From positions 868,001 through 932,000 of the forward strand of contig NZ_CP033906.1 of the NCBI RefSeq assembly GCF_003816055.1: 64,000 nucleotides of DNA. Direction: 5' to 3'. This DNA is from Bacillus sp. FJAT-42376. Its GTDB lineage: Bacteria > Bacillota > Bacilli > Bacillales > Bacillaceae. The position numbers and the translations under genes are program-made. Below the pieces are notes generated by a model that saw only the letters and a program-made list of their open reading frames with translations, made no database searches and was not told the DNA's origin. Shown piece by piece: positions 2,448 through 46,840 of this stretch; position 1 is the first letter of the stretch, and the number at the start of each line of letters is the position of its first letter.

Positions 2448-3293
2448 TTATAAATCTCTTGCCAATTTCCTTACCGCTTTTTGAAGGGTGCTTTCCGTTT
2501 TGATGCCGGAGAAATCAACGCCGAGCTGAATGGCTGTCTGAGCGACTTCAGGGCGGATTCCGCAAATGATGGTTTCCACGCCGATCAGTTTCAATGCTTC
2601 AACCAGCTGGAAGATCTCCTTCGCTACCATGGTATCGACTGTCACCACTCCGGACAAATCAAGAATCAGGTAATTGATTCCCAATTCAATGCTTTGCTGA
2701 AGGGAGGATTCCATGATGTTTTTTGCCCGTGCCGTATCAATGTCTCCGATGATTGGAAGAAGGCCGATATCCTTTGTCAGTTCAATGACAGGTGCACTGA
2801 GCTCCATAATCAGGGAAGATTGGGCTTCCAGCCGTGTTATCATAATTTTCATGAATTCACTTGTAAACGACTCAATGACATAATCCAAAGCCGAGTTCAA
2901 TTTTCTTTCCCAGTAAAAAAGGTCCTGAATGGTTATGGGCAAATCCGTTTGACTTGCGAACCGTTCGACAAACTGCCAAAATACACGGCGGAACACGCCG
3001 AAATTGCGGGTAACCTCGGAGATGGATGTACGGGACTGGGCGCGGTCGGCTGCGGTTCTTTTTGTCCAGGCTGCGATGCCCTTTTTCATGTCTTCCTCGG
3101 ACTGATCAAGAGACTTGGCCACGAGTCTTACGTAATTGGTATTTTGGTCCTTTATTTTTTGAGATACCTGCGGCGGGGCATCAAGCGAATAATCTGAACC
3201 TGGCTTAATCGACTGATGATTATACCATTCCTCGGTAAACTGGGGGGCTGTTTCCACAAGATACTGATAGAGTGCTTTCGCTTTTGTTTCCAT
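2448..3293 (-). CDS. RsbR-family stressosome protein (STAS domain)
   Basis: This 281-residue protein has an N-terminal all-helical, globin-like sensor region (about 1-150) and a C-terminal STAS domain (about 160-275), the architecture and length of the Bacillus RsbR paralogues, most like RsbRD (YqhA). RsbR proteins form the stressosome with RsbS and hold RsbT until stress, thereby controlling SigB. Thr residues sit in GDIDTARAKN and DLSGVVTVDTMVAK, the regions equivalent to the two RsbT-phosphorylated threonines of RsbRA; this placement is by eye. GAGGAG lies just before the ATG. It is monocistronic, and no rsbS or rsbT is nearby, as is usual for the accessory paralogues. Confidence 0.85.
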   Translation of the reverse strand: METKAKALYQYLVETAPQFTEEWYNHQSIKPGSDYSLDAPPQVSQKIKDQNTNYVRLVAKSLDQSEEDMKKGIAAWTKRTAADRAQSRTSISEVTRNFGVFRRVFWQFVERFASQTDLPITIQDLFYWERKLNSALDYVIESFTSEFMKIMITRLEAQSSLIMELSAPVIELTKDIGLLPIIGDIDTARAKNIMESSLQQSIELGINYLILDLSGVVTVDTMVAKEIFQLVEALKLIGVETIICGIRPEVAQTAIQLGVDFSGIKTESTLQKAVRKLARDL

Positions 3294-45166: not shown

Positions 45167-45195
45167 AAAAACCGCCGGATGATCCGGCGGTTTTT
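45167..45195. terminator. Terminator after yfmR
   Basis: AAAAACCGCCGGAT and ATCCGGCGGTTTTT form an almost loopless strong stem. Confidence 0.88.
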
Positions 45196-45392: not shown

Positions 45393-46055
45393 ATGAAACC
45401 TCCTGAGAAATTTGCACACAGTCTTCTTGAGGGAGATCATAAATCCGCGTGGGATATGATTCATCGTCAAATGAACGAAGGTGCAAGTACCCTTGATTTA
45501 TTTGAGGGGCTAATAACAAAAGCAATGAGATATATAGGCGAACTGTGGGAGAATAATGAGGTAACCGTGGCGGATGAGCATTTGGCTACGTCGACCTGCG
45601 ATTATATCCTGGCAAAATATCACTATCTTTTGAGAGAGAAAAATGGGAACCCTTCTTCAGATAAAAAGAAAGCTATGTTTTTGTGCGTGCAGGATGAAGA
45701 CCATTACCTTGGTCTGAAAATGGTCCATATTTTATTCGAGGAAAATGGCTGGGAAACGAAGTTTATGGGTCCCAACCTGCCGCTTGAATATGCAGTATCT
45801 GCGGCTCAGAGCTGGCAGCCGCATGTAATCGGTCTGTCTTTTAGTTTGAGCTACCGTGCAGGGGTGCTTAAATATTATATTGAGAAGCTCGAGGCCATAG
45901 AAACCGAACCGACCGTGCTGCTTGGAGGCCGTCTTCTTGCTACCCATGATTTTACCCAATATGGTTCTGAACGGACATGCTTCGTCCCGTCTCTTTATCA
46001 GCTTGCTGACTGGTTCCATTTAGAGCAGTCCGGAGGAGGTCAAGTTGTCAAATAG
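45393..46055 (+). CDS. Stand-alone B12-binding (CarH/MerR-B12-type) sensor protein
   Basis: A 220-residue protein with a helical cap domain (about 1-80) and a Rossmann-type cobalamin-binding domain (about 92-205). The cap has the W-x9-EH motif of CarH/LitR-type photoreceptors (Trp52, Glu62, His63). The Rossmann part has ExHxxG (Glu102, His104, Gly107), with His104 the expected lower cobalt ligand, then GLSFS and LLGGRLL. There is no helix-turn-helix and no methyltransferase domain. The residue after Trp52 is Glu rather than His, so the bis-His photoproduct of CarH may not form. AAGGGGTG precedes the ATG. The 3' end overlaps a STAS gene, suggesting output through it. Confidence 0.85.
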   Translation: MKPPEKFAHSLLEGDHKSAWDMIHRQMNEGASTLDLFEGLITKAMRYIGELWENNEVTVADEHLATSTCDYILAKYHYLLREKNGNPSSDKKKAMFLCVQDEDHYLGLKMVHILFEENGWETKFMGPNLPLEYAVSAAQSWQPHVIGLSFSLSYRAGVLKYYIEKLEAIETEPTVLLGGRLLATHDFTQYGSERTCFVPSLYQLADWFHLEQSGGGQVVK

Positions 46056-46800
46056 CAAACATATGCCTTTGGCATACTTCTTAATCAACAGGCAATTCGA
46101 GATCCTTGAATGCTCTGATGAAGCCAGGGATCTTTTTTCATTTCAGGATGATTCATCAATTCTTGAACTTGCTGATAGTGAGAGCCGCCCAAAGGCTATG
46201 AAATTTTTGACGGGGGACGGAAAAAAAGAGGCGGAGCTTGCTCTGCTCACAAAAAGCGGGACACTCGCAACCTTTAAGCTTGCGGTTAAGTGGGATGGTG
46301 AAATCGGGCATTTAGTCTGTCACCCCCAGGATTTGCATATGGCAGAGCTCATCAGCAAAATCAGTGATCAGCAGAGACGCCTTGCCGAGACGGATTTGGA
46401 GCTGCTTTTCCAAAAAGAAGCGCTTGAAAAATCATTGGAGAAAATCACCGAACTGTCTGGACCTGCGATTACAATATCACCGAAGCTGGTGCTCATTCCT
46501 CTGTTTGGAAATTTGGAGGAAAACTTGATCAGCAGGAACCGGACTAGATTGCTGAACAGTCTTTTTGAAAAAGACTTTGAACATGCCATCTTAGATTTTC
46601 ACGGGATCGGATCGCTGACAGGAGACGGACTGGAAGAACTCGGGAAACTGACGGCTGAATTCAGGCTCATGGGTGTGGAACCGATGTTTACAGGCCTTAC
46701 ACCTTCCCATGTGAAAGCGATGAACCAATCGGAAGCCGCTCTTGATGTCCTGTCTGTCAGTACCTTGCCAAAAGCCATTCAAACCTATTTTTCTTCCTAA
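46045..46800 (+). CDS. PAS-like + STAS-domain protein (RsbR-like), partner of the B12 protein
   Basis: A 251-residue protein: an N-terminal PAS-like fold (about 7-100, FLINRQFEILECSDEARDLF), a helical linker (about 100-140), and a STAS domain (about 145-250, PKLVLIPLFGNLEENLISR, then DFHGIGSLTGDGLEELG), as in RsbR co-antagonists. By alignment by eye the usual phospho-Thr of the DxTGxxxIDT loop is displaced (LTG). The start is TTG 46045 with GGAGGAGG 5-6 bp upstream, lying inside the upstream gene (11 bp overlap), a clear sign of coupling. The call that both form one sensor is inference. Confidence 0.82.
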   Translation: MSNSKHMPLAYFLINRQFEILECSDEARDLFSFQDDSSILELADSESRPKAMKFLTGDGKKEAELALLTKSGTLATFKLAVKWDGEIGHLVCHPQDLHMAELISKISDQQRRLAETDLELLFQKEALEKSLEKITELSGPAITISPKLVLIPLFGNLEENLISRNRTRLLNSLFEKDFEHAILDFHGIGSLTGDGLEELGKLTAEFRLMGVEPMFTGLTPSHVKAMNQSEAALDVLSVSTLPKAIQTYFSS

Positions 46801-46802
46801 TA

Positions 46803-46835
46803 AAAGCCGCCGGTTTATAAACCGGCGGCTTTTTC
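46803..46835. terminator. Terminator after the B12/STAS pair
   Basis: AAAAGCCGCCGGTTT and AAACCGGCGGCTTTTT form a strong stem, usable also by the converging lipoprotein gene. Confidence 0.9.
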
Positions 46836-46840
46836 GCTTT

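Follow-up and report, generated by a model that had tools for sequence, protein, structure and literature searches.

What does a stand-alone cobalamin-binding protein report when its gene overlaps that of a STAS-domain protein, and where does the signal go? The question is raised by two plus-strand genes in a 64,000-nucleotide stretch of DNA from Bacillus sp. FJAT-42376 (the window, meaning the whole stretch analysed). An earlier note, made from the letters of the window, had proposed that the two form one sensor that links adenosylcobalamin (AdoCbl) or light to the general stress response through an RsbR-like output. Here, we conclude that the pair is probably a split photocobilin-type light sensor, using AdoCbl and optionally a bilin, that signals through a PAS adapter to the stressosome.

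The gene pair and its cobalamin-binding protein

The features of the locus are as follows.

45168..45195, plus strand: likely terminator between the upstream ABC-F gene and the pair (inverted repeat and T5; read by eye)
45393..46055, plus strand: gene 1, stand-alone cobalamin-binding protein (220 aa, ATG start, from the ORF list)
Gene 1 residues 5-73, plus strand: four-helix cap, PF02607 (Pfam, E 1.5e-14)
Gene 1 residues 94-183, plus strand: Rossmann domain, PF02310 (Pfam, E 7.7e-13)
46045..46800, plus strand: gene 2, adapter-STAS protein (251 aa, TTG start, GGAGGAGG inside gene 1)
46066..46329, plus strand: PAS adapter domain (about residues 8-95; AlphaFold2 model, nearest structures, phmmer relation)
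46333..46449, plus strand: predicted long helix joining PAS and STAS (residues 97-135; AlphaFold2 model)
46450..46797, plus strand: STAS domain (about residues 136-251; Asn and Gly at the positions of RsbRA T171 and T205)
46802..46834, plus strand: likely terminator of the two-gene unit (inverted repeat GCCGCCGG-TTTATAAA-CCGGCGGC then T5, just past the stop; read by eye)

Both open reading frames were confirmed, with gene 2 starting inside gene 1 as previously described; the overlap is 11 bases and GGAGGAGG precedes the TTG. A hairpin scan near the gene 2 stop listed only a weaker neighbouring hairpin at 46824-46838 and not the 46802..46834 repeat, and the repeat at 45168..45195 is likewise absent from its listing.

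PF02607 and PF02310 were the only Pfam matches for gene 1, so neither a DNA-binding nor an enzyme domain was found, and the product is the isolated CarH-type cobalamin module that had been described. The Pfam search returned no MerR-type DNA-binding domain of the kind found in CarH, and gene 1 encodes B12 domains only, without the fused photoglobin domain that defines a photocobilin. The best NCBIfam score was to CarH (NF052513), at 45.1 bits against a cut-off of 400. Weak scores to MtaC, MtgC and MetH, and a fold that is identical in kind, would fit a corrinoid methyl carrier (MtaC/MtbC or MetH-like) that has a regulator as its neighbour and is no photosensor. We regard this as extremely unlikely and rejected it on gene context, as no methyltransferase was recognised by eye among the neighbouring ORFs in the window or at the loci read, and sensor-type partners are found at 106 of 115 loci (see below). 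The top NCBIfam score, itself far under its cut-off, also points to CarH and not to a methyl carrier.

The motifs reported earlier, Trp52-x9-Glu62-His63 and Glu102-x-His104-x-x-Gly107, are present, together with G126-x3-P130, and residue 53 is Glu. When 144 distinct B12 proteins were aligned, leaving out L005, repeats and fragments (≤181 residues or with stops), W52, E62, H63 and H104 were invariant (144/144), and the gene 1 motifs are therefore not due to chance. Residue 53, which we take to be the position of the second axial His in CarH, is Glu in 127 of these proteins, Gln in 16 and Leu in one. The earlier observation of Glu after Trp52, instead of the CarH bis-His ligand, is thus real. 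In the available part of PMC10979010, photocobilins also have no bis-His arrangement, and the characterised photocobilin photoproduct is water/hydroxide-ligated.

According to the accessible text of PMC11796333, GxxW, EH, GxxH and GxxxP form a signature of light-responsive cobalamin domains that has been validated by spectroscopy and structure, and the G of GxxH makes a main-chain contact. GxxW, EH and the H of GxxH are found in 144/144 B12 proteins, and the G and P of GxxxP in 135/144 and 139/144, respectively. The window protein has G49xxW52, E62-H63, H104 and G126xxxP130, with Asp101 replacing the G of GxxH, a G that is found in just 17 of the 106 STAS-group rows; this departure counts against the light reading. 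At the level of sequence, gene 1 thus carries the signature save for this one residue. Cobalamin binding by its product, as predicted from the motifs, is very likely, and light is its likely input.

Alternatively, protein 1 might report the supply of AdoCbl or methylcobalamin to the stressosome, with light incidental. The conserved cobalamin motifs are consistent with such a status sensor, and the genome has two cobalamin riboswitches, which indicates that B12 is managed there. We nevertheless consider it unlikely, as the residues of the adenosyl cap are those of the light-response signature in the accessible text of PMC11796333, and the co-inheritance of a phycobiliprotein-like globin (see below) would have no role. 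The two LOV-STAS proteins of this genome also make light input to its stressosome plausible.

The adapter-STAS protein and other outputs

No Pfam family matched gene 2 at E values up to 1, and in NCBIfam only the STAS part of YtvA_fam was returned, under its cut-off. The AlphaFold2 model (mean pLDDT 80.1, pTM 0.45) has a PAS-like part, a helix at residues 97-135 and a STAS part. This agrees with the nearest structures, which are PAS domains for residues 6-96 and stressosome STAS proteins for about residues 135-251, and upholds the PAS-like plus STAS architecture proposed previously. The C-terminal STAS domain is of the stressosome type, its nearest folds being YtvA, stressosome RsbR and RsbS. 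The claim of an RsbR-like output held for this domain. The RsbRA phospho-threonines are replaced by Asn and Gly in the window protein, and Thr occupies the T171 position in 4/105 relatives and the T205 position in 8/105. With these residues lost, the gene 2 protein is more YtvA-like than RsbR-like; its entry into the stressosome is therefore argued by analogy with YtvA, which also replaces RsbRA as the model for its output. NCRFLQ, the flavin-binding Cys motif of the LOV domain, is absent from the gene 2 protein.

Conserved adjacency, the lack of which in relatives the earlier note had set as a ground for abandoning the idea, was examined in 80 genomes of the window's family and in 397 Bacillales genomes (135 genera). 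In the family, gene 2 matches at E ≤ 1e-10 were found in 25/80 genomes, and the B12 gene is directly upstream in 23 of them; the other two are a STAS-only match (G041) and STAS fragments without B12 (G066). In the larger sample, B12 homologues are present in 178/397 genomes and 56/135 genera. The gene 2 search returned 142 matches in 132 genomes, and B12 is directly upstream at 136 of the 142 (133 from listed coordinates and three from reading the DNA). Of the six others, two are STAS-only (G117, G156), one is partial with no B12 match in the genome (G162), and in G374, G291 and G081 the B12 gene is located elsewhere. Removing G117 and G156 leaves 130 adapter-STAS genomes, 129 of which have a B12 match. 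Gene 2 is split over two frames in G073 and G053, as is the B12 gene in G353.

From the B12 side, 106 of 115 loci have an adapter gene directly downstream (80 STAS, nine kinase and 17 neither). Counted from either gene, the adjacency is conserved. These loci were not chosen at random: they comprise the 30 best matches, 59 picked for family spread, 25 more and the second pair in the same genome as the window. L207, a repeat of L196, was excluded, and L203 (G205), an open frame of 1186 residues that we take for MetH, was retained as having no adapter.

A phmmer match (E 2e-9) relates the gene 2 adapter to the N-terminal part of L006, a second B12-paired protein of the same genome, which has a histidine-kinase core. 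Among 12 kinase-type partners, ATP-binding boxes are recognisable in all, and the phospho-His has been lost in 10 and kept in two. It is kept in L161, L174 and the later-read L213, and is replaced by M, R, G, E, N or S in L006, L018-L020, L162, L169, L175, L177, L180 and L184. The His-less proteins are possibly pseudo-kinases or kinases of another substrate. RsbT is absent or near 1e-18 in four of nine kinase-type genomes (G141, G228, G252 and G277) and good in the other five, which is only suggestive of the kinase type substituting for a missing stressosome. The second B12 pair of the window's genome (L054 4299-6051; G000:C1 about 1268298-1270050) consists of a B12 gene that overlaps a PAS-adapter kinase gene, whose product has Met at the phospho-His position and has kept the ATP boxes. 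At L031 and L077 (G078), a B12-STAS pair and a second B12 gene, the latter of the kinase clade, are arranged back to back, and the strand of this second gene continues with adapter-kinase, ABM and globin genes.

Partners of 206-223 aa that consist of the adapter only, with a helical end that looks DHp-like and no ATPase, were found at L131, L134, L138, L141, L142, L147 and L192. Each of these seven genes is convergent with an opposite-strand kinase-core match, and both kinases read over their full length, at L131 and L141, have an intact His box. At L204 (558-1466; G245), a part containing the letters GGDEF comes after an adapter-like N-terminus (weak, E 7e-7); the B12 gene is the next one downstream, and ABM and globin genes are also found downstream.

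A tree of 145 B12 proteins groups by output type, with four changes for STAS against a shuffled mean of 34.5, and the kinase and adapter-only types cluster within it (support 96/70). As the same adapter is carried on differing outputs that are grouped in the B12 tree, it looks like a reader of the B12 subunit.

The globin and ABM partners

In Fictibacillus, Rossellomorea, Alkalihalobacillus, Planococcus, Halobacillus and others, an ABM gene and a globin gene precede the pair, and ABM-globin is in one operon with it at 42 of 80 STAS loci. In the genome studied here, a single 4.25-Mb contig has the pair at 0.914 Mb and ABM and globin near 4.026 Mb, a distance from globin to pair of 3.1 Mb, or of about 1.1 Mb should the contig be circular.

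The globins are about 115-130 residues long, and neither of two sequences scanned had a Pfam match above cut-off. When a profile of ten globins was compared with PDB sequences, phycocyanin alpha and two photocobilin chains were returned first (E 0.003). Foldseek alone found no match to the globin model (pLDDT 94.8) at E ≤ 0.001. With VIA-align, the 50 matches listed were all phycobiliproteins, photocobilin 8j2w, smURFP or 'bacterial fluorescent protein', and among 50 matches listed the TMq values were 0.65-0.78 for phycobiliproteins against 0.39-0.60 for haemoglobin-type globins. An Asp and a Trp that align with the SasPcob globin, spaced as D270 and W296, are present in 87/87 distinct globins; both are named as biliverdin contacts in the portion of PMC10979010 available. 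The partner globin, whose gene is outside the window, therefore has both a globin fold like that of phycobiliproteins and the Asp of the chromophore site. In 66/87 globins, a Cys aligns with the one in the C-x-R-D motif of phycocyanin, here as C-x-E-D, and makes a covalent bilin conceivable.

The ABM protein is a relative of the IsdG-type haem monooxygenases and resembles IsdG/HmuQ, under their cut-offs. Asn, Trp and His are the catalytic residues of IsdG-type haem oxygenases, including the Asn of IsdI. Among 79 ABM proteins, the His is found in 79 and the Trp in 71, and 77 have Ser where IsdI has Asn, which makes bilin production doubtful.

In the window's family, the globin is present in 23/80 genomes, and the set is identical to the 23 genomes with the pair. 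In 16 of them, the B12 gene is absent from roughly 3.3 kb (about 1.5 kb each way) around ABM-globin. The pair and the globin are thus inherited together even where they are unlinked. Across the 397 genomes, 152 have both B12 and globin, 26 B12 only, eight globin only and 211 neither (raw counts, uncorrected for shared ancestry). The globin was read in two of the eight genomes that have it without B12, and is a lone gene in G349 and a decayed remnant in G166. Divergent or broken B12 copies only, with no globin match, are found in G045, G048, G050 and G079. Three of these copies were fetched after the residue counts and so fall outside the 144 rows: H63 is replaced by Tyr in L213 (G048), H63 and H104 are both lost in L214 (G079), each with an adapter gene still downstream, and the gene is disrupted in L212 (G050).

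The globin has no match in 19 of the 130 adapter-STAS genomes. We therefore rejected it as an obligatory part, and with it an obligatory bilin, and conclude that it likely contributes to the sensor, optionally. These figures also bear on the possibility that the true input is haem, a bilin or gas/redox state sensed via the globin and monooxygenase, while B12 serves as a cofactor with a structural or redox function. Globins can sense gases, and the ABM protein has the likeness to haem-degrading proteins described above. This explanation is very unlikely, given that B12 is present in 129/130 of the same genomes and that the globin model is nearer to phycobiliproteins than to haemoglobin-type globins among the 50 matches listed.

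The stressosome, a proposed mechanism and known systems

An rsbR-S-T-U-V-W-sigB-rsbX operon (gene names by sequence reading) is located near 0.602-0.607 Mb of the genome, which also encodes several RsbR paralogues and two LOV-STAS proteins. One paralogue, of 281 aa, is in the window (2448-3293, minus strand); its residues at the T171 and T205 positions are Asp and Thr, respectively. The LOV-STAS (YtvA-like) proteins, L087 and L089, are encoded at G000:C1 about 2.05 and 2.08 Mb, and both have NCRFLQG; their T171/T205 positions hold E/K and S/Q, with no Thr. An RsbT match (E ≤ 1e-15) was found in 130/130 adapter-STAS genomes against 145/219 genomes without B12 (raw counts), although that in one adapter-STAS genome, G288, is weak (8.8e-31). 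In G124, a genome of the Fictibacillus type, rsbR follows the end of the four-gene operon at a distance of 4.7 kb, and among the matches listed the B12 gene is 7.1-7.7 kb from rsbT in 13 genomes of order family f46.

Upstream regions of 36 B12 loci were scanned for a SigB promoter using the pattern GTTT-N13-18-GGG[AT]A. It matched at seven (L006, L019, L020, L033, L037, L040 and L041), in each case 161-220 bases upstream. The window pair gave no match, its spacing from GTTT to GGGTAG of 19 bases being one over the limit. GGGTAG is 37 bases ahead of the start of the window pair and 39 in close kin, and it fits a SigA -10 at least as well, so autoregulation of the pair by SigB was rejected. A promoter scan gave no plus-strand entry, and no convincing SigB promoter for the pair was found in the 36 regions.

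This lack of a SigB promoter, and the scarcity of Thr at the T171 and T205 positions, would suit a STAS protein that acts outside the stressosome, for example on an anti-sigma factor or a kinase beyond the rsb system. We consider such a target distinctly unlikely, given the RsbT match in every carrier, the stressosome proteins among the nearest folds and the precedent of YtvA as a light sensor of the RsbR family. In the part of PMC3944199 available, YtvA boosts stressosome output in blue light, a positive role alone is known, and YtvA with RsbS alone in vitro seemingly formed no stressosome. By analogy with YtvA, the gene 2 protein would enter the stressosome, and SigB would be the output of the pair. 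The proposal of a single sensor for the stress response therefore stands as far as the co-inherited pair, the stressosome-type STAS domain and the rsb-sigB operon are concerned, but it had missed the globin and ABM partners and the swappable outputs.

For the split light sensor that we favour, the following mechanism is proposed. Protein 1 would bind AdoCbl base-off, with His104 as the lower ligand, and Trp52, Glu62 and His63 would hold the adenosyl group. Green light would break the Co-C bond, as would longer wavelengths when the separately encoded globin docks beside protein 1. Cleavage would change the B12 dimer. Protein 2 would sense this change with its PAS domain and relay it along the helix to its STAS domain within the stressosome, leading to more RsbT release and more SigB activity, in the way that YtvA acts in blue light. 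We infer AdoCbl and bilin binding, the light signal, the physical complex, entry into the stressosome and the sign of the output.

More tentatively, the pair could be one form of a modular dual-chromophore photosensor that exists in pieces in Bacillales and, alongside the LOV-STAS proteins, makes for a multi-colour stressosome. Its parts might be a B12 photoreceptor, a subunit resembling phycobiliproteins that acts as an antenna or adds a second colour, a monooxygenase that forms the bilin and a PAS adapter dedicated to the system. Its swappable outputs might be the stressosome, mostly His-less kinases that have kept their ATP boxes, a DHp-like stub without a kinase and a diguanylate-cyclase domain. 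To our knowledge, the inputs of most RsbR-family proteins are unknown, and if our reading is correct that of one becomes directly testable. About a third of the Bacillales sampled (130/397) would then have B12, and often bilin, light input to the stressosome, and many stand-alone 'B12-binding' and 'STAS' genes would gain a role. Such a system would be a naturally split light switch that responds to several colours and whose outputs can be exchanged, and its His-less kinase-like branch is a further puzzle.

No paper on a B12-binding/STAS sensor pair in bacilli was found among the titles and abstract starts searched; the photoglobin study of Schneider et al. 2022, considered here as cited by others, may have described some neighbourhoods of this kind earlier. 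In the available text of PMC10979010, the photocobilins SasPcob and AbDPcob have, like the pair, a CarH-type B12 domain with W-x9-EH, an axial His and a bilin-binding globin alongside; they form no bis-His photoproduct and control enzyme outputs, and STAS and SpoIIE proteins are named as potential partners of an actinobacterial photocobilin. They differ in that here the B12 protein and globin are the products of separate, sometimes unlinked, genes, and the signal is passed on by an additional protein that carries a PAS adapter. The photocobilins described there also have no linking Cys, whereas most of the globins here have one in C-x-E-D.

CarH/LitR share the cobalamin module and adenosyl cap with gene 1, which has no DNA-binding domain, has Glu for the second axial His of CarH and acts via a partner protein. 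Gene 2 resembles YtvA (LOV-STAS) and the RsbR paralogues in its N-terminal PAS-family domain, helix and STAS domain, and the two LOV-STAS proteins of its own genome in having no Thr at either RsbRA phosphosite. It differs from YtvA in that its PAS domain appears to serve as the adapter of a separate B12 subunit and is unlike a flavin-binding LOV domain. The BBAG-2 globin systems, as presented in the accessible part of PMC10151467, are alike in having a separate bilin-binding globin, a B12-binding protein and a bilin-making enzyme. There, the systems are from pre-PcyA lineages and Myxococcales and use a haem oxygenase, while those described here are from Bacillales, have an ABM protein that resembles IsdG, and signal through STAS, kinase or GGDEF outputs.
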